From NCBI RefSeq assembly GCF_016592575.1, contig NZ_AP017470.1, positions 1,015,471 through 1,079,470 on the forward strand: a DNA stretch of 64,000 bases, given 5' to 3'. Below, one piece after another: positions 779 to 27,575 of this stretch (its first letter is position 1; each line of letters opens with the position of its first letter). The notes below the pieces were generated by a model. That model worked only from the letters and a program-made list of their open reading frames with translations, was not told the origin of the DNA and ran no database searches. Made by a program: the position numbers and the translations under genes. This DNA comes from Thermotomaculum hydrothermale (GTDB lineage: Bacteria; Acidobacteriota; Holophagae; Thermotomaculales; Thermotomaculaceae).

Positions 779-2296
779 TTAATTCCCGCTAACAAATTCT
801 TTTTTAAATTCCTCTATTGCTTTATCCATTTTTTCTTTTAATTCATCACTTAAATCTTTCTTTTCAACAATTTCAGTAAAAATCTCTGGATAATTGTTTT
901 CTATAAACCTGTAAAGGCCTTCCTCAAAATCCTTAACTTTTTCAAGTGGCAAATCGTCAAGGTAGCCATTTGTACCTGCATAGATTATTACAATCTGTTT
1001 CTCAACAGGCAGAGGTGAATACTGAGGCTGTTTAAGAATTTCAACAAGCCTTGCACCTCTTGTCAACTGCTTTTGTGTTGCAGCATCAAGGTCAGAGCCA
1101 AACTGGGCAAAAGCAGCAAGCTCTCTATACTGAGCAAGGTCAAGCCTCAATGTACCGGCAACCTTTTTCATTGCTTTAATCTGAGCTGAGCCACCAACCC
1201 TTGATACAGACAAACCAACATTTACAGCAGGTCTAACACCTGAATGGAAAAGGTCTGTTTCAAGGTATATCTGGCCGTCTGTAATTGAAATAACATTTGT
1301 AGGAATATATGCTGAAACATCACCAGCCTGAGTTTCAATTATAGGGAGAGCAGTTAAAGAACCTGCCCCTTTTGCATCAGATAGTTTAGCAGCCCTCTCA
1401 AGCAATCTTGAATGGAGATAGAAGACATCTCCTGGGTATGCTTCTCTTCCCGGGGGTCTCCTTAAAAGCAGTGAAATTTCTCTGTATGCCGCAGCATGTT
1501 TTGACAAATCATCGTAAACTATAAGTACATGCTGCCCTTTATGCATAAAGTATTCACCCATTGCACAACCAGCATAAGGCGCAAGGTAAAGCAAAGGAGC
1601 TGGTTCTGACGCTGATGCTGATACAATAATTGTGTAATCCATTGCCCCTTCTTCTTCTAATTTTTTAACAACCTGAGCAACAGTTGACTGCTTCTGTCCT
1701 ATTGCAACATAGATACAGATAACATCCTGTCCCCTCTGGTTGATAATTGTATCTATTGCAACTGCTGTTTTACCAGTCTTTCTATCACCAATAATAAGCT
1801 CTCTCTGTCCTCTTCCAATAGGAATCATTGAGTCAATTGCTTTTAAACCAGTCTGTAATGGTTCATGAACTGATTTTCTTTCAATAATGCCTGGAGCAAT
1901 TCTCTCAACTGGATAGTATCCATCATTTTCAATTGGGCCTTTATCATCAAGAGGTTCACCAAGAGGATTAACTACCCTGCCTATTAAAGCCTCTCCAACA
2001 GGAACAGACAAAATCCTCTTAGTCCTGTTTACCTCGTCCCCTTCCTTAACCAGGGAAGATTCTCCAAACAAAACGACACCTACACTATCCTCTTCAAGGT
2101 TAAATACCATGCCGTAGAGTTTGTTTCTTGGGAAGAAAACAAGCTCTCCGGCCATTGCTTTCTCAAGTCCGTAGATCTTTGCAATACCGTCACCGACGGA
2201 TATTACAGACCCAACTTCTGCAAGATTTAACTCGGCTTCAACGCCTTCCAATTGTTTAATAAGAATCTTACTGATTTCTTCTGCTTTAAGCGTCAT
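779..2296 (-). CDS. atpA: F1Fo ATP synthase alpha subunit
   Basis: Non-catalytic nucleotide-binding subunit of the F1 head. The 505-residue length is normal. Visible features are the N-terminal beta-barrel region ([18 protein letters not shown], about 27-44), the P-loop GDRKTGKT at 170-177, and the [10 protein letters not shown] segment carrying the arginine finger that reaches the neighbouring catalytic beta site. The ATG at 2296 directly follows the atpH stop (TAA-ATG) and has GGGGAG upstream, so translation is probably coupled. It lies between atpH and atpG in the usual order. Confidence 0.97.
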
Positions 2297-2842
2297 TTAC
2301 AACTCCCCTGTAAGTTTTTCTTTTATTTTAAAAATTTTTGTCTTCACACTTCCGTCAATTAATAAGCTTCCAATTCTTGCAACAACTCCACCTATGATTG
2401 ATTTATCAACCTTTATATTTAGCTTAACTTTTTTACCACTTTTCTTTTCAAAAAGCTCAATAAATTTCTTTTCAGTGGTTTTTGAAATAGGCTTTGGCAC
2501 TATTAAGTTAACTTCAACAATACCTAATTCTTCGTATAGATACTTCTTTGTGGCATCTTTAAGATAAAAAAGAATTTTAAACCTGTTGTTTTTTATAACC
2601 TTTAATAGAAAGTTTTTGTATTTACCTTTAAATTTTAATTCATCCAAAATCAATGAAAGTTTCTCAATCTTTATATTGGTTGAGATAGAAGGATTTTGAA
2701 AAAATTTTACAGAAGCCTCTTCCTTGCATATAGCGTCAACAACATTGAAAAAGTTAGTAAATACCTCTTCAGGTTTTTTTTCCTCAGCAATTATAACAGA
2801 TAAGGTTTTAGCATACTTATTTACTATAGATTTTTCAATCAA
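2297..2842 (-). CDS. atpH: F1Fo ATP synthase delta subunit
   Basis: Peripheral-stalk protein joining the b dimer to the top of F1. The 181 residues are the normal size: a helical N-terminal domain beginning MIEKSIVNKYAKTL (the family's 'YAxAL' start region) and a C-terminal part ending in IIGGVVARIGSLLIDGSVKT, the most conserved stretch of delta/OSCP proteins. The start codon is TTG at 2842, directly after the stop of the upstream b gene. GGAGG lies about five bases before it within the end of that gene, so coupled re-initiation is likely. Confidence 0.93.
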   Translation of the reverse strand: MIEKSIVNKYAKTLSVIIAEEKKPEEVFTNFFNVVDAICKEEASVKFFQNPSISTNIKIEKLSLILDELKFKGKYKNFLLKVIKNNRFKILFYLKDATKKYLYEELGIVEVNLIVPKPISKTTEKKFIELFEKKSGKKVKLNIKVDKSIIGGVVARIGSLLIDGSVKTKIFKIKEKLTGEL

Positions 2843-3385
2843 TTAACCCTCCAATTCTTTAAAATAATTTTCAATAGTAGCATCAATATCTTTTTCAGTT
2901 ATAGAGGTTTTAATTATTTCTTCTGCATTTTTTGAAGCCAATTCAAGCATGTATTTTTTTAATTCGCTTTTTGCAGAATTAATTTTGTTTTGAATTTCTA
3001 TCTCAGCAAGCTTTTTAATTTTTTCTGCCTCTTCCTTTGCCTTGGCAAGTATTTTTTCCTTCTCTTTGTTTGCTATTTCATCAGTTTTCTTTAAAATAGC
3101 CTCCACTTCGTTTTTTAAATTTGCCATTCTTTCTTCAATCTCTTTTAGTTTTGCTTCTGATTCTTTTTCTTTAACTTCCGCTTCCTCAAGTTTTTTAATT
3201 AAAGCATTTCTCTGAGTTTTCATTGCTTCCACTATTGGTTTTTTTAATAAAACATAAAGAACATAAGCAAAAACAATAAAATCAAAAATATGGCCTATTA
3301 AGAGTATGGGAGAATGTCCGCCTTCTGATGCAAAAATTAAAGTACTAAAAAAAAGAACAGGTAAAACTTTTAATCCTCTTTTCAT
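2843..3385 (-). CDS. atpF: F1Fo ATP synthase b-type subunit with signal-like N-terminus
   Basis: One of two tandem b-type stator subunits. The 180 residues begin with a hydrophobic, signal-peptide-like segment (MKRGLKVLPVLFFSTLIFAS). A single membrane helix follows (about residues 25-47, ILLIGHIFDFIVFAYVLYVL), then a long charged coiled coil rich in K and E up to the C-terminal FKELEG. Its ATG overlaps the stop of the upstream b gene (ATGA), indicating translational coupling. Together with the neighbouring 152-residue protein it probably forms a b/b' heterodimer, as in lineages with split b genes; which one corresponds to b' is not clear. Confidence 0.88.
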   Translation of the reverse strand: MKRGLKVLPVLFFSTLIFASEGGHSPILLIGHIFDFIVFAYVLYVLLKKPIVEAMKTQRNALIKKLEEAEVKEKESEAKLKEIEERMANLKNEVEAILKKTDEIANKEKEKILAKAKEEAEKIKKLAEIEIQNKINSAKSELKKYMLELASKNAEEIIKTSITEKDIDATIENYFKELEG

Positions 3386-3840
3386 GCCAGTTTCCTTCCA
3401 ATAATTTTTTCTACAATCATTTTTGCTATAACTTCAACATAGTTCTCTGCCTCTTTAAGCTCTTTCTTTAAAGCAGAATCAAGTTCTCTGGCTGACTTCT
3501 CAATAACCTCATGAGCCTGCATTTTGGCTGTGTTAACAATTTTTTCCCTTTCTTTCTTTGCTTCATTAACAAGCTTCTCTCTTAATGCATTTGCATTAAC
3601 TCTTGCCTTTTTAATTTCATCTTCGTATTGCTTTATCTTTTCTCTGTAATAATCTTCAACTTCTTTAAACCTGTTTTCCGCACCAACAATTCTGTTTTCC
3701 CTCTCTTCCAAAATAAAGAGGTAAGGTTTAATATAGAACTTTTTGAGAATTAAATAGAGGAGAATAAAAATAACAGCAATGACAATAATTGATTCATTAA
3801 TCTGCATAGGTCCGGGTAATGTTTTCATAAAACTTTCCAT
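3382..3840 (-). CDS. atpF: F1Fo ATP synthase b-type subunit, first gene of atp cluster
   Basis: Second tandem b-type stator subunit, 152 residues. It has a short N-terminus, one membrane helix at about 16-34 (SIIVIAVIFILLYLILKKF), the FYIKPYLFILEERENRI turn typical of b subunits, and then a coiled coil to the end. It is the promoter-proximal gene of the cluster: a TTGACA-N16-TAATAT promoter sits 37-64 bases upstream. ATG at 3840 has GGAG about eight bases before it; ATG at codon 5 is an alternative start. It overlaps the next b gene by four bases. Confidence 0.87.
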   Translation of the reverse strand: MESFMKTLPGPMQINESIIVIAVIFILLYLILKKFYIKPYLFILEERENRIVGAENRFKEVEDYYREKIKQYEDEIKKARVNANALREKLVNEAKKEREKIVNTAKMQAHEVIEKSARELDSALKKELKEAENYVEVIAKMIVEKIIGRKLA

Positions 3841-3917: not shown

Positions 3918-5729
3918 TTATCTTACCGGTATGGTTATAGGTATCCAGGTTTTTACCGGAACACCTTCTTTCATTGGTGGCGTAAATTTCCATTTTTTAA
4001 CTGCTGATACAATCCTTTTTTCTGCCAGCCTTGAATGAGGTGTGGCAGGTTTAATTTTTCTGATAAGCTTTACTTCGTCAACACTTCCATCTACACCAAT
4101 TAGAACCATAACCAACACTTTTGCACCTCTTGGCAGTCTCCAGCTTGGGCTTAAAATTATTTTTTCTTTATATACCGGCCTTGGTGCGCTATCCAATTGT
4201 TCAACAGCAACAACAGTGCCGTATAGTTTTTTTCTCAATTCTTCTTTCTTTTTAGCTTCTTCTAATTTTTTTCTTCTTGCTTCTTCTTCTTTTTTCTTTT
4301 GTAACTCCAACAATTCTCTCATTTTAGCCTGTTGATCCTGCTGTTTTTTCTGCTCTGCAAGTTGCTTTTGTTTTAACAGCATTTCTTTTCTTCTCCTCTC
4401 TTCCTCAATCCTCTTCTTTTCCGCTTCAATTCTTTGAAGTTCCGCAAGCTGTTTCTGTTTTTCTTCTTCCATTTTTTTCTTTAAAAATTCTTTTGCTTTC
4501 TGGTCAGCCATTTTTTCCGCTTCTTTTAATGCTTCCTGCATTCTCAATTCCATCTGTTTTTTCAACTCTTCTATTTCTTTTTGTTTTTGCATTTCAAGCA
4601 ATTTTTTCTTCTGGATTTCCTCTTCAATCCTCTTTCTTTCAGCCATTAACCTTTTCTCTTTTTCTTTACTCTGCCAGTAGTAATACCCTCCTACTGCACC
4701 TATGGCAATAATAATAAAAACAATCGCAGCGATAATTACCGGGGACATCTTTTTTTCAATAACCCTTGTTTCCCCAAAGTAACCTGCATAGTTAGCACTT
4801 CTCTCAAGTTCAAGAGTCTTCGCAAGTTCTTCACTTACATCTCTGTAGAGAGAATGCATAAAAAAGGCAAGGTTAAATGTAGTTGGGGAGTAATCTCCTG
4901 AAAAAATCAAGTTATCAAGCACTTCCCCTAATTCTTTAATTGAGGAATAGCCTCCTGTTAAACACTTGTATAAAACTTCTTTTATATCATCTGGAAGTGG
5001 GTCATCCCCAAAAGATGAAGAAGCCAAAGTTGCTTCATTGAGTTTTGTTTTTATATCAGGTAAAACGCCATCTTCTTCAATTAACGGTTTTCCTGTTAAT
5101 AATTGATAAGTAATCGCTCCAACAGAAAAAATATCATATTGTTCATTTCCCTTCCCAGAATTAAAAACATCTGGATGTATATAGCTTATATAGTCTTTTT
5201 TAAAATCAGGATTTGCATTCAGGTACTCTACAATGTAAGGGCCAATGGCAAGGTCATAGAGTTTTACATCCCCTTCAAAAGAAATATTTATGGAATAAGG
5301 GGTAACAAAACCGTGCTTAAATCCTTTTGAATAAATAGAGGACAATGCTGCTGATAATTTACTTGCGATTAATAAAACATGGTCAATGGAAAAAGGAAAC
5401 CCTTCCTCTCGACTTTTATTAATAATATTGTTTAAAAACTGTCCTTCTACAAATTCACAAACTATATAGCCGCCTTCATTTGTCTTTTTGGCGTCTAATG
5501 TTTTAGCTACGAGAGGGTCATTAAAGGTTTTTATAGTTTTTGAATAATTAACTACCTGAGATACAAACCTTGAAAAATTTTGAGGTTCTGGTTTAAATTT
5601 TTTAATAAATACAAACTCTTTAAACTGTCCCTCATCAGAGGTAGATATTCCTCTAAATACTTCGGAAAAACCATCTTCTTTTATTTTTTCCGAAACAATG
5701 TAATTATCCAAAACCTGTAATTCTGCCAT
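3918..5729 (-). CDS. Membrane pseudokinase with coiled coil and TonB-type C-terminal domain
   Basis: A 603-residue, three-part protein. Residues about 8-275 have the eukaryotic-type Ser/Thr kinase fold: a degenerate glycine loop (IKEDGFSEVF, 16-25), a beta-3 lysine (FIKKF, 41-45) and YDIFSVGAITYQLLTG (198-213). The catalytic loop reads HGFVTPYSIN (139-148) where active kinases have HRDLKPxN, so the catalytic Asp is absent; DFG is DLA (159-161). A membrane helix spans about 329-352. A long K/E/Q-rich coiled coil (355-500) leads to a TonB C-terminal-like domain (about 508-603: RPVYKEKIILSPSWR, VLIGVDGSVDEVKLIR, WKFTPPMKEGVPVKTW). The architecture suggests cytoplasmic sensing joined to a periplasm-spanning arm that contacts outer-membrane proteins. 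The function is inferred. It stands alone between the atp cluster and the divergent stress module. Confidence 0.8.
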   Translation of the reverse strand: MAELQVLDNYIVSEKIKEDGFSEVFRGISTSDEGQFKEFVFIKKFKPEPQNFSRFVSQVVNYSKTIKTFNDPLVAKTLDAKKTNEGGYIVCEFVEGQFLNNIINKSREEGFPFSIDHVLLIASKLSAALSSIYSKGFKHGFVTPYSINISFEGDVKLYDLAIGPYIVEYLNANPDFKKDYISYIHPDVFNSGKGNEQYDIFSVGAITYQLLTGKPLIEEDGVLPDIKTKLNEATLASSSFGDDPLPDDIKEVLYKCLTGGYSSIKELGEVLDNLIFSGDYSPTTFNLAFFMHSLYRDVSEELAKTLELERSANYAGYFGETRVIEKKMSPVIIAAIVFIIIAIGAVGGYYYWQSKEKEKRLMAERKRIEEEIQKKKLLEMQKQKEIEELKKQMELRMQEALKEAEKMADQKAKEFLKKKMEEEKQKQLAELQRIEAEKKRIEEERRRKEMLLKQKQLAEQKKQQDQQAKMRELLELQKKKEEEARRKKLEEAKKKEELRKKLYGTVVAVEQLDSAPRPVYKEKIILSPSWRLPRGAKVLVMVLIGVDGSVDEVKLIRKIKPATPHSRLAEKRIVSAVKKWKFTPPMKEGVPVKTWIPITIPVR

Positions 5730-5800
5730 AGCCCTCTCCCTTAAATTTATTTATAATTAAAATTACCTGAATTATCGATAAAAATCAAGAATAATATTGA

Positions 5801-5888: not shown

Positions 5889-6419
5889 ATGATTAAAAAA
5901 ATTTTGGTATTAACAGTTTTAGTGGTATTTTCAATAATTAGTTTTGCCCAAAGACCTATGGGACACCCAGGAAAAACGAATGCCCCTCACTTAAAAGGTG
6001 CGTTTAAGACATTCATGTTTTTTAAAGTGGTAAAAGACTCTCGAGAGCAGTTAAACTTAAATGAAAAGCAAAATGTGGAACTTGACAAAATTTTAAGAGA
6101 TGTAGAAAACTTTACAAAACAGCTTAGAGAAGAGAGAAGCAAGGACAATTTTGGTAACAGGTTTGTAAGCAATTCTTTTGATCCATTCAAATTTGAGCAG
6201 GAAAGACAAAAAAGGCAGGAAGAGGTAAAAAACTTCTATTTATCAAAGATTAAAGCAGTTCACGACCTTTTAACAAAAGAACAAAGACAAAAACTTGTGG
6301 ACATTATGAGAGAAAAAGCTAAGAATATAAGGAGCAAAGCTAAAAAAAGAATGAGGGATATGAGGAAATGGAGAAAAGACAGAATAGGAATGCAGAGAAA
6401 CACTCCAAAAAATTACTAA
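5889..6419 (+). CDS. Spy/CpxP-like periplasmic stress protein (LTxxQ repeats)
   Basis: A 176-residue exported protein: signal peptide at 1-20 (MIKKILVLTVLVVFSIISFA), then an all-helical, highly charged body. Two LTxxQ-type motifs mark the Spy/CpxP family: LNEKQ at 57-61 and LTKEQ at 128-132. Family members act as periplasmic chaperones or as inhibitors of the Cpx sensor kinase. Here the gene heads a transcript with an OmpR-type regulator and its kinase, matching cpxP-cpxRA logic, so a feedback role on the downstream kinase is likely. The C-terminal tail is very basic (K/R-rich, 145-170). It overlaps the next gene by 52 bases in another frame. Confidence 0.8.
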   Translation: MIKKILVLTVLVVFSIISFAQRPMGHPGKTNAPHLKGAFKTFMFFKVVKDSREQLNLNEKQNVELDKILRDVENFTKQLREERSKDNFGNRFVSNSFDPFKFEQERQKRQEEVKNFYLSKIKAVHDLLTKEQRQKLVDIMREKAKNIRSKAKKRMRDMRKWRKDRIGMQRNTPKNY

Positions 6420-7084
6420 TTATCGATGACGACATTAAATCAAACGAGTTGCTAAGTTCTTTATTGAAAAATTATGGGTTTGAGGTTTTTACAGCCTCAG
6501 ACCCTTTTTTTGGCCTTGATTTAATAAAAAGAGAAAGCTTTGACATTGTACTTCTTGATGTTATGATGCCTAAAATAGACGGATTTGAACTTTTAAAAAA
6601 AATAAGAGAGTTCTCAGATATTCCAGTAATTATGTTAACTGCAAGGGGAGAAGTTTCAAGCCGAATTGTTGGATTGGAGTTAGGGGCAGATGACTATGTA
6701 CCAAAGCCTTTTGACATAGGAGAGTTAGTAGCAAGGATTAAAGCAGTATTAAAGAGAACTAAATCTAACAATAATTTTAAAAAAATAATTGAAACAGAAA
6801 GCGGGCTTAAAATTGACACATCTAAAAGAGAGGTTTTTTTGAACAATGAAAATTTGAACCTTTCTACAATGGAATATGACCTGTTAATTCTTTTTGTAAA
6901 AAATAGAGAACGAGTTTTAACAAGGGATAATATTATGGAAAATCTAAAAGGTTACGAGTGGAATGTTTTTGATAGGTCTGTTGATATCCTGGTTAGCAGA
7001 TTGAGAAACAAGTTGAAAGATAACCCTCAATATCCCAAATTTATAAAAACTGTGAGAGGCATCGGCTATATTTTTATTGGATAG
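6368..7084 (+). CDS. OmpR/CpxR-family response regulator
   Basis: A 238-residue two-component regulator. The receiver domain (about 15-130) has the acidic pocket DDD at 20-22, the phospho-acceptor Asp64 (VLLDVMMP), Thr91 (LTARG) and Lys113 (PKPFD). The winged-helix output domain follows (TMEYDLLILF, RSVDILVSRLRNKL, IKTVRGIGYIF). No later in-frame Met precedes the receiver, so the ATG at 6368 inside the end of the Spy-like gene looks genuine and leaves a 52-base overlap. Three bases separate it from the kinase gene. It probably binds the tandem repeat at 5801-5820 and so autoregulates the operon; that is inference. Confidence 0.92.
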   Translation: MEKRQNRNAEKHSKKLLIIDDDIKSNELLSSLLKNYGFEVFTASDPFFGLDLIKRESFDIVLLDVMMPKIDGFELLKKIREFSDIPVIMLTARGEVSSRIVGLELGADDYVPKPFDIGELVARIKAVLKRTKSNNNFKKIIETESGLKIDTSKREVFLNNENLNLSTMEYDLLILFVKNRERVLTRDNIMENLKGYEWNVFDRSVDILVSRLRNKLKDNPQYPKFIKTVRGIGYIFIG

Positions 7085-7087
7085 GTT

Positions 7088-8440
7088 ATGAAAAAGATTT
7101 ATTTTAAATTTTTGCTAATTGCTTTTTCAGTTATCTTTTTAACAATTGTTTTTGTTTTTTATCTGGGATATCTAAAAAGGGAACAATTAAGAAAAGAAAG
7201 ATTGAGATTTATTGAGATAAGAGAGATTTTTTCAATATTAAAAGAAAATTCTCCTCTCAACCAGAGCAAACTCCCCCTTTTAAAAGAAATTGAAAAATCT
7301 TATGGAGTAAATATTTTTGTTAAAACAAACAAAAAATTTCACTACATTTCTGACGAAAAAATGTTATCTCCGAAGGTAAGACACCGGCTATTGGAGATAA
7401 AGAGATTTCCTAAAAAAAGAAAAATGATCGCGGGGGGTGTTTTTAGAGACAAAAAGAGAATTCTTCCTGATTTTAATTTTAGAGACACTAAAATAACATA
7501 TTTAATAGACAAAAGAACAAAAATCTTGAGAGGGGTGAAATTTGAAACTCCAGAATTACAAGTATTTCTCCTAAAAAAAACCAGCAATTCTCTTCTTGCT
7601 GCATTTTTTACTTTAATCACTATACTTTTTTTACTATCGGGGATTCTACTTTACCTTATTAGAAAATGGTATGTAACACCTTTAATTGAACTTGAAAACT
7701 CAATAAAATCAATTGAAAACAACCTGAATTCCCCCGAACTCTTTACCGACTCGTCTGGAACATTAACCCCTGTTTTCAATGCTTTAAACGATTTAAAGAG
7801 AAGGATAATCCACGAAATCAACTCAAAAGAAGATATGCTAAGAGATATTTCACACGATTTAAAAACTCCTTTAAGCCGAATAAAACTTGCAACAGAGTTT
7901 ATTGAAAATGAAAAGATTAAAAAAGGAATAAAAGAAGATATAAGTGAGCTTGAAAATCTTATAAACCAGATTTTAGACATTTACACTGTGAAAAAAGAAA
8001 ATTGTAAAACCGATTTAAACAATTTTCTTGAGAAAATACCAGAAAAGTACAAAGAAATAAAATTCAGTATAAAATGCAATGAAAAGATTATTATCCCTGT
8101 TTGCGAAGAGGATTTGAAAAGGATTTTTTACAACCTTGTGGATAATTCAATTAAGTTTGCAACAACTTCAGAGGGTGTGTTTATAGAAGCGTATAATGAA
8201 AACAATTCTGTTTTAATAAAATATACAGACTGTAAAACAAAGGGAGAAAAACCTGATTTAAACAGAATGTTTGATTATTTTTATAAAAGCGACAAAGCAA
8301 GGAATAAGAGCATAAACAGAGGCTTTGGTTTGGGGCTTTCTATAGTAAAAAAGATTACCGAACAGTACAGCGGCAGTATTTCAGTAAGTTATTCAAACTG
8401 CAATGGGCTTGAGTTTGTATTTAAATTTCCATTAAATTAA
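7088..8440 (+). CDS. Sensor histidine kinase (CpxA-like)
   Basis: A 450-residue membrane sensor kinase partnered with the adjacent regulator. Membrane helices at about 8-29 and 169-191 bracket a basic periplasmic sensor domain of about 140 residues, followed by a HAMP linker (RKWYVTPLIELENSIKSI). The HisKA box has the phosphorylated His256 (DISHDLKTPLSRIK), and the ATPase domain has an N box (FYNLVDNSIKFA) and a G box (NRGFGLGLSIV). Synteny with the Spy-like protein suggests that it senses envelope stress. It ends in a 4-base overlap with the convergent gene at 8437. Confidence 0.9.
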   Translation: MKKIYFKFLLIAFSVIFLTIVFVFYLGYLKREQLRKERLRFIEIREIFSILKENSPLNQSKLPLLKEIEKSYGVNIFVKTNKKFHYISDEKMLSPKVRHRLLEIKRFPKKRKMIAGGVFRDKKRILPDFNFRDTKITYLIDKRTKILRGVKFETPELQVFLLKKTSNSLLAAFFTLITILFLLSGILLYLIRKWYVTPLIELENSIKSIENNLNSPELFTDSSGTLTPVFNALNDLKRRIIHEINSKEDMLRDISHDLKTPLSRIKLATEFIENEKIKKGIKEDISELENLINQILDIYTVKKENCKTDLNNFLEKIPEKYKEIKFSIKCNEKIIIPVCEEDLKRIFYNLVDNSIKFATTSEGVFIEAYNENNSVLIKYTDCKTKGEKPDLNRMFDYFYKSDKARNKSINRGFGLGLSIVKKITEQYSGSISVSYSNCNGLEFVFKFPLN

Positions 8441-19365: not shown

Positions 19366-21561
19366 TCATATTTCCAATATCTTCCAATTTGATAAATCAT
19401 TTGGATTATATTCGTATTTTTCATTATCATTGTATCTCCATGTCCCATTGACAAAAATAGCAATTCCACCCCAAAGTTTCTTGCCTTTTTTATTTTGTTC
19501 TCTTATATACTTTTGTAAACCCTCTGCCCTTGGCCCAGCATCTTTTGCAGTCATTCCAGCTTTTGTATCAAATAAACCAATCTTTCCATCTGTAAATTGA
19601 ACAATGAAATCAACATAAAATGCTTTTTCAAAATCATTTTCATCTTTATATAAAACAGCAAAATATTTTATTTCATTCTCACCATTCTTAAACCACCATT
19701 TAACTTTATTTGATTTTTCCAATAATTCAATAAATTGTTTCTCTGGTTGGCTCGATTTCTTGACATAAAATGGTTTCATAATTGATTTTTTCTTTTCTTC
19801 TCTTTTATATCTGCTATTGTAACTTATGATAACAGGCACTTCCCATTTAGGAACATTTATTCTTTCTCTTCTTTCGCTAAGTTTTTCAACAATTTCTTTT
19901 TTGTATCTTTCTTTTGCTAAATTTATAGCATCCACAAAAGCTTGAACATTTTCCTTTCCTAAAACAATTCTTTGAACTTGAGGGTCATATTTCTTCATTT
20001 TAAATTTCTCATTAAAGAAACGATAAATTGCTGTTTTCATTCTGTCGCTTGAATCAACAGGAGCATATGGAGTAGAATTATTAGCAATGAATTTATCAAA
20101 TCTATGTTGTAATTCAACTGCATTTAACTGAACATCTATTGTTCCTTTATGCTCAATTTCTCCAGTTTTGTCAATATTAACAATTCTACCATCTGCTATA
20201 ATAGGACTTACAACTTTTGATGGTCTTAATGTAATCCTCTTTTTTAAGTTCATCTCCTCTGCTATTTCCATAAAAATCCTAGAGAATTCTCCAGATAACC
20301 TTGTTCTTTCTCTTTGTCTTTTCAAATAAACAGAAGATAATGAAATCTCTTTATAAAGTTTATTATCTCTTTTTGCTTCAAAAATTGTAACATAATCTTT
20401 TGCGTAATCTTCAGTTATTGTTATATTTGGTAAGTTTGTAAAGACATAACCTTTGTTTAACTCATCATGGCTATAATATTTTAATTCAGGCATTCTCATT
20501 ATTCTACCAATCGTTTGTATTGTAAAAGTGAAACTTTTTGATTCTCTAAAGATAACTAAAATTTGGGCCCTTGGACAATCCCAACCTAAAGCTATGGCCT
20601 GTTTGAAAACTAAAACCTCTACTTCGTTATCTGGTTTATCTACATTAATTAAGGTATCTGTTTTTTGTTCCGAAAGCCAAACAGCAAGTTTCCCATTTTC
20701 TTCAGTTATGTTAAATTTGTCTTTTAGAATTCTCAAAACTTCATCTTTTTTATTAATTAAATTACTTCTTTTGTCTGGCAATTGAATCAAGACGAGAGGA
20801 TTAATGTTTATTCCTTCTTTTTTGTATAGTTTTGCCAATTCCTCTCTTTTCTTTAATGCTTCACCTATAACTAACTCGTCTGAGCTTTTTCTCCTGTTTC
20901 CCGGAATATTTAAGAAACCAGGATTAACAACAATTTCTGATTTAATCATTTCCTCAGCTTTAACATCTGCCAATAGAACCTTTTCAATTTCAAAGATGTT
21001 TTCTGTAAGTTGTGGTGTTGCTGATACTTCAATTGTTACTTTTGGACCAATAACCTCAATTAATTCTTTTGACCTTTCAGATTTGGCTGTGTGGTGGCTT
21101 TCATCTATAATCAAAATTATATCTCTCCCTTCTTCTTTTGTGTTTTGAATAATGGCATTCAGATTATTATCATGTTCATTTTCTCTTACATAAATGTTAA
21201 TGTCTTTCTTGTTTATGCTATGCCAATTTAGGAATAAAATCTCATTTTCTCCTATCTTTCTATCTTCCAAATCTTCAAAATAAGAGCATTGAATTAATCT
21301 ATCATCTTCATAGTATCTTTCAAGCTTTTCTTTGCTTTGCTCGTGCAAATGTCTTACAGAAATCCAGATAAAAGATAATTTCTTGCCATGTTTTCCTTCT
21401 TTTACTAACTTCTTTAATGTTTCAGAAACCATTAATGTTTTTCCTGAACCTGTGGGAGCTTGAAAGATAACAATCTCATTTTCTGGTGATTTTAAAGCTC
21501 TCTCTACCTTATCCTTTAATCTTTCAACAGCCTCCTTTTGATAGTTTTTTAGCTCTATCAT
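19366..21561 (-). CDS. Type III restriction endonuclease, Res subunit
   Basis: A 731-residue SF2 translocase-nuclease that, with Mod, cuts DNA between convergent unmethylated sites. The helicase motifs are the P-loop APTGSGKT (35-42), DESH (153-156), SATPQ (180-184) and QTIGRIMRMPE (motif VI). The C-terminal nuclease has YVDFIVQFTDGKIGLFDTKA: Asp651, Asp665 and Lys667 form the PD-(D/E)xK core. It is shorter than EcoP1I/EcoP15I Res (about 970) but keeps both catalytic parts. Its ATG overlaps the mod stop (ATGA), so translation of Res is coupled to readthrough of the frameshifted mod. Confidence 0.88.
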   Translation of the reverse strand: MIELKNYQKEAVERLKDKVERALKSPENEIVIFQAPTGSGKTLMVSETLKKLVKEGKHGKKLSFIWISVRHLHEQSKEKLERYYEDDRLIQCSYFEDLEDRKIGENEILFLNWHSINKKDINIYVRENEHDNNLNAIIQNTKEEGRDIILIIDESHHTAKSERSKELIEVIGPKVTIEVSATPQLTENIFEIEKVLLADVKAEEMIKSEIVVNPGFLNIPGNRRKSSDELVIGEALKKREELAKLYKKEGININPLVLIQLPDKRSNLINKKDEVLRILKDKFNITEENGKLAVWLSEQKTDTLINVDKPDNEVEVLVFKQAIALGWDCPRAQILVIFRESKSFTFTIQTIGRIMRMPELKYYSHDELNKGYVFTNLPNITITEDYAKDYVTIFEAKRDNKLYKEISLSSVYLKRQRERTRLSGEFSRIFMEIAEEMNLKKRITLRPSKVVSPIIADGRIVNIDKTGEIEHKGTIDVQLNAVELQHRFDKFIANNSTPYAPVDSSDRMKTAIYRFFNEKFKMKKYDPQVQRIVLGKENVQAFVDAINLAKERYKKEIVEKLSERRERINVPKWEVPVIISYNSRYKREEKKKSIMKPFYVKKSSQPEKQFIELLEKSNKVKWWFKNGENEIKYFAVLYKDENDFEKAFYVDFIVQFTDGKIGLFDTKAGMTAKDAGPRAEGLQKYIREQNKKGKKLWGGIAIFVNGTWRYNDNEKYEYNPNDLSNWKILEI

Positions 21562-23238
21562 TTGAATATCCTCCTGTAAACATTTAGTATAACAGCGGGT
21601 ATTGGTTTTAATTCAACCATTTCAATTACATCTTCAAATTCTTCCTCTCTTGCGCTCTCATCTAATGAAAACACATATACAACAAATTTCTTTTTTAATT
21701 TTTTAACTTCTTTCTTAAATGGCTCAATCCCCTCATCATCGTAAATAATTCCTAAATGCTTACCCTGGGGATTTTTGAATATTCTGAAATGCTTGGCCTC
21801 TTTCACTAAATCAAAACAATCTTCCTTCAAACAAAGCATTTCTGTTGATTTATCTACTAATTTCTTCTTGTTTAGATCTGTTGGTTCGGCATCAACAAAA
21901 TCAGTTTTGAAGTATTTGAGGTTTCCACCTAAACCTTCAACCCATTCTCCTCTAAGATTTTTATAACCTTTAATCACTTTTTCAATTCTTGGATAACAAA
22001 CATCTGTACAGATGTTGTTTTCGTTGTTAGTTACTAAAATAAACTTTCTATTTCCACCATCCTCTTTGTTTAATTCTAAAACGGCATGGCCTGTTGTTCC
22101 TGAACCCGCGAAAAAATCTAGGATTATAGAATTTTTTTTAGAGGTTATTTTTAAAATATCTTCCAAAAGGTATAAAGATTTAGGATACTCAAAAAGATTT
22201 TCTCCTAAAATTTTTTTCAATAAATTAGTTCCGTGAAACTCTGAATGATATTTTTTGTTAATCCATATATTCTTAAATACCTGTTTTTCTCTATATTTAT
22301 GAAATATCTTTATTTGGTTTCCTTCTTTTTTTGCTACAAAATAACCATCTTTATTTAGTTTTTCAAATGTTTTAGGGATATTCTTCCATCCCCATTCTCG
22401 CCCATCGGCTGTTTTTGGATAAACTTCATAATAACCTTCTCTTTTTTCAAGGGTTATTGTTTTGAGATCTTTACTAACATAAATAGGATAATAATTTTGG
22501 GGTTTATTTTTTCTAGACCAAGAAGTTCTCACTCTCATAAAAGGTTCTAGTCTATATCGACCTTTAGCATCCTCTAAATTGAAAGAAGTTTTTTTGTCTT
22601 CATCTATGGCAACATCATTAAATTTTGCTAATCTTATATCTTTTGTGTAAATAAGCATGAACTCTGAATTTTCTGAAAAAAATTTTGATAAGTTTCTTCC
22701 TTTAGGATTATGCTCTACTGTTACTAAACCTACTCTATTTTTTTCCCCAAAAAGCTCATCTAATAATAAACCTAATGAGAATAATTCGTTTGCATCTATT
22801 GCACAAATCAAAAATCCATTTCTTTTCAATAGTTTTTTTTGCCAGTAAAATCCTCTTTTCCATAAAAGAAAGCCATTTACTATGTCTCCACAGGTCATTA
22901 CTATCAACATAATTATTATTGTATTTCCAATTTTTTGCACCTGTATTATATGGCGGATCAATATATATCACATCAATTTTTTCTTTGTGAGTGTAATTAA
23001 GAACTGAAAGTGCATGATAATTATCTCCTTCAATTAAAATATTAATTGGTTTGTTTTTATCTGTTTTGATTTCTTTGCTTTTGTCTTCTATTAAAACAGG
23101 TAATTTTTCTTTGCACAATTCAGCCACTTTTTCAGGTTTATCTTCCCAGACTATTCCATACTTCTTTCTCTTTTTTAGTTTTTTTATTTCTTTGATTAAA
23201 TCTTCTTTTGTCCATTTGGAATAGTTTTTTTCTACCAT
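21558..23238 (-). pseudogene. Type III DNA methyltransferase Mod, one-base frameshift at an A8 tract
   Basis: A beta-class adenine methyltransferase giving specificity to the type III system. The first part (frame from ATG 23238) carries motif IV DPPYNTG (residues 94-100) and runs to KRILLAKK. Homology then continues in another frame as LLKRNGFLICAIDANE, followed by FFAGSGTTGHAV (SAM-binding motif I) and the C-terminus. The switch is at eight A residues (T8 at 22833-22840 on the plus strand). With seven A residues the frame is continuous and encodes 559 residues, a plausible full Mod. As written, the first frame stops near 22756, after 160 residues. It could be phase variation, transcriptional slippage, decay or a sequence error. 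Confidence 0.85.
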
Positions 23239-26843: not shown

Positions 26844-27575
26844 ATGGGGAATTTTGACTTTAAAAATTTAATAGTTACATTTGACAAAGGCGAGTACATC
26901 TACAGAGAAAATGATAATGCCAGCACTATGTTTATTATTCATCAGGGAAAAGTAAAATTGTACAAAAAATCCGAAAGTGGAGAAGAATTTGTTTTAGGAG
27001 AGTTTGGAAAAGGTGATTTTTTTGGTGAAATGGCTGTACTTGGAGAGGATAAAAGAACTGAAAACGCCTTAGCTATTGAACCTGTTAAGGTTATTGTTAT
27101 CTCAAAACCTGTTTTTATTAAGCTTTTGAAAAATAATGCAGAAGTAGCGGTTAGAATGATAAGAAAATTCTCAGAAAAATTAAAAGATGCGAATAAAATG
27201 ATTGATGCTCTTCTTAAACAAAAACAATTGTCATTTGACTCTTCAAAATTAGAACACTACGCTTACCTTGAACTAATTGATTCAGGAGAAAAAATTCCAT
27301 TGACATCAAATAATGTGGTAATAGGAAGATATGACCCTATAATCGGGATTTATCCTGATATAGACATAAGCCCTTACGACCCCCAGAAGACAGTATCCAG
27401 AAAACATGCAGTGATAACCAGAGAAGGAAATGGTACATATATTGAAGAGCAAATAGGAGTAATCAACGGAACATTTCTCAATGGAGAAAAAATCAAAAGC
27501 GGTCAAAAATACAAACTTAAAAATGGAGACAAAATATATTTTGGGCTTGTTGGCTGTTATTACAAAGAAAGGTAA
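26844..27575 (+). CDS. Cyclic-nucleotide-binding plus FHA domain protein
   Basis: A 243-residue cytoplasmic signalling protein. Residues 10-125 form a CNB domain: EYIYRENDNASTMFIIHQGK, then GDFFGEMAVLGEDKRTENA, the phosphate-binding cassette with the key Glu and an Arg. Residues about 145-243 form an FHA domain (VVIGRYDP, TVSRKHAVI, NGTFLNGEKI), which binds phosphothreonine peptides. There is no HTH, so it is not a CRP-type regulator. It presumably links cyclic nucleotides to Ser/Thr phosphorylation. It lies 48 bases after maeB, with a weak terminator between. Confidence 0.85.
   Translation: MGNFDFKNLIVTFDKGEYIYRENDNASTMFIIHQGKVKLYKKSESGEEFVLGEFGKGDFFGEMAVLGEDKRTENALAIEPVKVIVISKPVFIKLLKNNAEVAVRMIRKFSEKLKDANKMIDALLKQKQLSFDSSKLEHYAYLELIDSGEKIPLTSNNVVIGRYDPIIGIYPDIDISPYDPQKTVSRKHAVITREGNGTYIEEQIGVINGTFLNGEKIKSGQKYKLKNGDKIYFGLVGCYYKER

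Follow-up and report, generated by a model that had tools for sequence, protein, structure and literature searches.

A pseudokinase with a TonB-type C-terminal domain in Thermotomaculum hydrothermale: a candidate trans-envelope adaptor from an apparently undescribed acidobacterial family

The gene described here lies in a 64,000-nucleotide stretch of the single 2.3-Mb contig that makes up the genome of Thermotomaculum hydrothermale (hereafter the window, to which all positions refer unless stated otherwise). It starts with an ATG at 5729 on the reverse strand and encodes a 603-residue protein. The following features were distinguished, with the basis of each assignment in brackets.

3918..5729, (-): whole gene, 603 aa, pseudokinase, transmembrane (TM) helix, helical arm and TonB C-terminal domain (TonB_C) (open reading frame, Pfam, AlphaFold2)
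5732..5740, (-): strong Shine-Dalgarno-like sequence GGGAGAGGG preceding the ATG (read directly)
4899..5708, (-): pseudokinase domain, residues 8-277 (Pfam Pkinase; structure model)
5286..5315, (-): degenerate catalytic loop HGFVTPYSIN, residues 139-148 (sequence)
4842..4898, (-): family signature GDYSPTTFNLAFFMHSLYR, residues 278-296 (family alignment)
4674..4742, (-): single TM helix, about residues 330-352, without histidine (hydropathy)
4224..4673, (-): charged arm, probably a single helix, residues 353-502 (AlphaFold2, composition statistics)
3921..4187, (-): TonB C-terminal domain, residues 515-603 (Pfam, AlphaFold2, PDB comparison)

A first-pass annotation, made from the sequence alone, had proposed a pseudokinase joined through a membrane helix to a TonB-type tail, and this layout was borne out by Pfam, hydropathy, AlphaFold2 and a survey of catalytic residues. 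Both domains matched their Pfam profiles above the curated cut-offs, Pkinase at residues 13-255 (E 6.8e-14) and TonB_C at residues 536-598 (E 2.4e-6). The AlphaFold2 model of the full protein, built on a 65-row family alignment, had a mean pLDDT of 86 and consists of a kinase fold to about residue 299, helices at 331-459 and 469-502, and a beta-beta-alpha-beta domain. Its kinase part (5-299) matched PknA, PknB and MST3 in the PDB at Z 24-26. As the full-length model drew only kinases from the PDB, a separate model of the TonB domain was made and compared. It reached a pLDDT of 93 and, as the annotation had anticipated, TonB C-terminal domains ranked first among its PDB matches, led by TonB in the FoxA complex (Z 9.7, 85 residues, 2.2 A).

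Pfam, the structure model and the alignment all place a kinase fold without the HRD catalytic aspartate (HGF) in the window protein, and the loop HGFVTPYSIN and the DLA at the DFG position read as the annotation had given them. The decisive losses in this protein are the HRD aspartate, a properly placed HRDxxxxN asparagine, the glycine loop and the alpha-C glutamate. Since it retains the VAIK-type lysine (K43, in VFIK) and the DFG aspartate (D159), the window protein may still be able to bind nucleotide. Across the 65 aligned family members, the HRD aspartate was never found and the HRD arginine is replaced by glycine in 64, HG[FLV] standing where HRD would be. The VAIK lysine is kept in 3 members (lost in 62) and is arginine in 38, while a bulky residue usually replaces the VAIK alanine; the DFG aspartate is kept in 21 (lost in 44), the catalytic-loop asparagine in 3, and all three catalytic residues are absent in 43. 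Residues that support the kinase fold are nonetheless kept, namely P144 (65/65), D199 (63/65) and H139 (60/65). This pattern differs from that of the GLW pseudokinases, in which GLW replaces HRD (PMC12599244). It differs as well from that of the DYD pseudokinases, which combine arginine in place of the VAIK lysine with a loop asparagine and a DYD motif; the family shares the arginine in the 38 members mentioned and the asparagine in only 3/65, and has no DYD motif. Judged by these residues, the kinase domain has most likely lost phosphotransfer. An intact HRD/DFG active site was found in no orthologue among the 65 aligned members. The annotation had named a homologue of the same architecture with intact HRD and DFG as evidence against its reading, and one does occur in the organism's own taxonomic family (HRDISPQN, DFG, TonB_C), as a paralogue.

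The most conserved element of the family, above either domain, is a stretch of 19 residues C-terminal to the kinase (278-296, GxYSPTTFNLAFFMHxLFR), which was absent from the first-pass description. Seven positions are invariant in 65/65 members (T284, F285, N286, A288, F289, M291 and H292); F or Y occupies position 290. In the AlphaFold2 model this signature forms a helix after the kinase domain, just before the membrane. The active paralogue of the own taxonomic family has a loosely similar helix (NERAVAEFVNALYKED), so the helix itself may be ancestral and its TTFNxAFFMH-type sequence specific to the pseudokinases. Because it is invariant and lies beside the membrane, we propose that the signature helix is likely to be a binding or coupling surface.

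To see how widely the family occurs, a set of 84,980 genomes, one per species, was scanned with short peptide queries, FNLAFFMH among them. This yielded 60 loci, all but one in records titled Acidobacteriota or one of its classes; as the scan relied on short peptides, divergent members may exist elsewhere. The exception is a metagenome-assembled genome (L069, JAHZIX010000045.1) titled Deltaproteobacteria, whose pseudokinase nests among Thermoanaerobaculia in the tree and whose title may be wrong. The family spans the three classes Holophagae, Thermoanaerobaculia and Vicinamibacteria. Written as a DNA pattern, the signature is present in 58 of 396 genomes of Acidobacteriota, comprising nearly all larger Holophagae genomes and several families of other classes, and a reversed-pattern control gave none among the matches listed. 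TonB_C was recognised by Pfam at E 0.001 in 59/65 aligned members, so that loss of the HRD aspartate and the TonB tail are conserved together over several genomes, as the annotation had suggested. Pseudokinases and active paralogues of the same genomes split cleanly (SH-aLRT 99) in a tree from a quick method, its root position untried. Catalytic loss, TonB_C tail and tree split together make this look like a conserved, distinct pseudokinase family, and apparently one so far undescribed.

The window protein and its orthologue in the genome L038 form a close pair, 79% identical. Between them the kinase shows a dN of 0.21 and a dN/dS of about 0.09; for the stretch of signature and TM the two values are 0.03 and 0.01, and for TonB_C 0.08 and 0.03. 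The ratios are approximate because dS is saturated (2-3 or beyond). On these values the protein is under purifying selection, and such low ratios argue that it is not decaying.

The arm between membrane and TonB_C (353-502) contains 23% Glu and 34% Lys/Arg. Hydrophobicity at its heptad a/d positions does not exceed that of shuffled sequences (z 0.4 and -0.4; a crude test), and E-K/R pairs at i+3/i+4 are enriched over shuffles (z 3.3-5.1). In the window lineage the arm is therefore more likely a single charged alpha helix than a coiled coil. The long charged coiled coil of the first-pass annotation thus stands as a charged helix only, and a coiled-coil dimer was rejected on the same crude test. 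Spacers of other lineages carry less charge, and their proline content reaches about 20%. Spacer length in the family has a median of 150 residues (range 61-220); with composition varying in this way, it seems to be spacing, not sequence, that is preserved. Lysines and arginines flanking the TM number 3 before and 7 after in the window protein and are about even in the family, so that the positive-inside rule leaves the topology unsettled. A cytoplasmic kinase part is suggested by the single TM together with the absence of an N-terminal hydrophobic segment.

Several characterised systems resemble parts of this design. GltG and GltJ of the Agl-Glt gliding machine of Myxococcus xanthus have a single TM, a periplasmic helical region and a TonB_C motif, and GltG also has an FHA domain in the cytoplasm (PMC3169522, PMC5349195). 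The window protein likewise has TM, helical arm and TonB_C; however, its family carries a pseudokinase instead of FHA, belongs to Acidobacteriota and has no recognised glt/agl operon. MviN of Mycobacterium tuberculosis (ActPs3 family) and EssB/YukC are characterised non-catalytic membrane pseudokinases (PMC12599244). MviN is comparable as a membrane-linked, non-ATP-binding kinase-fold scaffold whose nucleotide pocket contains bulky residues (PMC12599244), but its pseudokinase is actinobacterial, fused to the MviN membrane protein and without TonB_C, and the window family has no MviN fusion. EssB/YukC of type VII secretion also combines a cytoplasmic pseudokinase with one TM in a non-catalytic scaffold role (PMC12599244), but it is Gram-positive and its extracytoplasmic part is not TonB-like; Pfam YukC, the only profile used for this comparison, had no match in the window family at E 0.001. 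Ser/Thr kinases of the PknB/StkP type, which include the closest PDB sequences, share the order of cytoplasmic kinase fold, TM and extracytoplasmic part, but these kinases are active and have PASTA repeats. TonB and TolA have a TM, a long spacer and a C-terminal docking domain of the same fold; unlike the window family they lack a cytoplasmic domain, whereas the family lacks a TM histidine and an adjoining motor gene. A 2025 review of bacterial pseudokinases distinguishes seven families, and its text names neither TonB nor Acidobacteria (PMC12599244). The first-pass annotation knew of no characterised example. This holds for kinase-TonB fusions, none of which were found in open-access literature searches of incomplete coverage, but not for the wider design, given GltG/GltJ with other cytoplasmic modules and the membrane pseudokinases MviN and EssB/YukC.

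The reading that we prefer, with about an even chance of being right, is that of a non-catalytic trans-envelope adaptor linking the outer membrane or periplasm to a cytoplasmic partner. It starts from the computed fold, architecture, conserved catalytic loss, invariant signature, purifying selection and lack of a canonical ExbBD coupling residue; its topology, both partners and the direction of signalling are what we infer. With phosphotransfer lost, the cytoplasmic kinase fold would bind other proteins, and the surface for binding or coupling is likely to be the TTFNxAFFMH helix that precedes the membrane. A single TM helix would anchor the protein in the inner membrane, the spacer, a putative rigid single helix in the window lineage, would cross periplasm and peptidoglycan, and TonB_C would dock on a protein of the periplasm or outer membrane. 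Each end could then register what is bound at the other, so that either the state of the outer envelope is passed to a cytoplasmic partner or a cytoplasmic complex is positioned at a site of the outer envelope.

Alternatively, the pseudokinase might be an allosteric partner of active Ser/Thr kinases, pairing with the conserved active kinase and tuning it by periplasmic state, which we regard as possible but rather unlikely. Most Holophagae, strongly reduced genomes excepted, do have an active-looking kinase (HRDISPQN, DFG) that is about 60% identical in the kinase domain, and in the own taxonomic family this kinase has a TM and TonB_C tail of its own (L136:9419-11560 (+); at about 0.518 Mb in the T. 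hydrothermale genome). Pseudokinases in general often act on active kinases, and the genome has 11 FHA domain matches. However, the two genes are not linked, lying about 0.5 Mb from each other in this genome, and in the sampled Holophagaceae the active kinase ends in a tail anchor without TonB_C. The two kinds of tail make it probable that kinases of this group acquired TonB_C on more than one occasion. In a further locus (L077:1567-5600) two tandem kinase-like genes lie a few bases apart, the second reading HGFLVPETI at HRD.

The annotation had also suggested transfer of force between cytoplasm and outer membrane. TonB proteins driven by ExbBD carry a histidine in the TM, and tonB is often unlinked from exbB/exbD. 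An energy-driven transducer like TonB, TolA or GltG, in which an ExbBD/AglRQS-type motor moves the TonB_C tail while the pseudokinase regulates from the cytoplasm, would fit the TonB_C fold, the layout shared with GltG/GltJ, GltG binding the motor protein AglR (PMC3169522), and the three MotA/ExbB genes and four TonB-dependent-receptor matches of the genome. Against this, the TM histidine is absent in 64/65 family members (the one exception has it at the TM edge), yet present in this genome's own TonB beside ExbB. All three MotA/ExbB genes are distant from the pseudokinase gene, two of them sitting near other TonB_C genes, and no exbBD cluster was recognised near family genes among the selected annotated neighbours. 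A loss of TonB-dependent receptors was not seen in genomes without the pseudokinase gene, small genomes of this kind keeping their receptors. The ExbBD-driven transducer was downgraded on the missing histidine and is improbable; with neither this residue nor an adjoining motor gene, the protein is more probably a passive adaptor than a transducer of force.

The neighbourhood of the pseudokinase gene, for which one representative per neighbour cluster was annotated, differs between lineages. In about 23/60 loci, mostly in Thermoanaerobaculia, the gene immediately upstream on the same strand belongs to the YceG/MltG cluster; a CsgG/LpoB-type gene adjoins in about 10/60, and Acanthopleuribacteraceae have an SLT transglycosylase or D-Ala-D-Ala ligase-type gene nearby. 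In the organism's own genus, genes for a CpxP-like (LTXXQ) protein, an OmpR-type regulator and a histidine kinase (5889-8440 (+)) diverge from the pseudokinase gene, with the same order in L038. These neighbours are suggestive of a wall or envelope theme, and with it of a protein that regulates the growth of peptidoglycan or envelope, in a role like that of the mycobacterial MviN pseudokinase. We nevertheless consider such a role doubtful, because each gene association is limited to one lineage, maybe through inherited synteny, and envelope genes are frequent in any genome. The atp genes (F-type ATPase b subunits, delta and alpha; 779-3840 (-)) lie 77 bp 3' of the pseudokinase gene; a link to ATP synthase was rejected because this adjacency occurs in the own taxonomic family only and the gap contains a promoter-like site before atpF. 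That the kinase is a decaying or functionless relic, as its lost catalytic residues might suggest, is extremely improbable in view of its conservation over three classes, the seven invariant signature positions and the low dN/dS.

Elsewhere in the window, 26844-27575 (+) encodes a protein with a cyclic-nucleotide-binding and an FHA domain, and 19366-23238 (-) holds genes resembling a type III restriction system, namely Res (ResIII, DEAD) and one for a DNA methylase. The methylase frame seems to be split into two open reading frames (22756-23238 and 21558-22961, both (-)) that overlap; an A-rich tract is located near 22840, and a frameshift or phase variation may be involved.

A further reading, offered tentatively as possible but rather unlikely, is a phylum-restricted outside-in signalling system across the envelope that uses no motor. 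Contact of TonB_C at the outer membrane would allosterically control the pseudokinase, and the TTFNxAFFMH helix would switch active kinases or a cytoplasmic machine. Bacterial pseudokinases are a little-studied group. A family with a clear fold on either side of the membrane, a diagnostic motif and a distribution over three classes would make inward information flow via TonB-type domains directly testable in cultured Holophagae.
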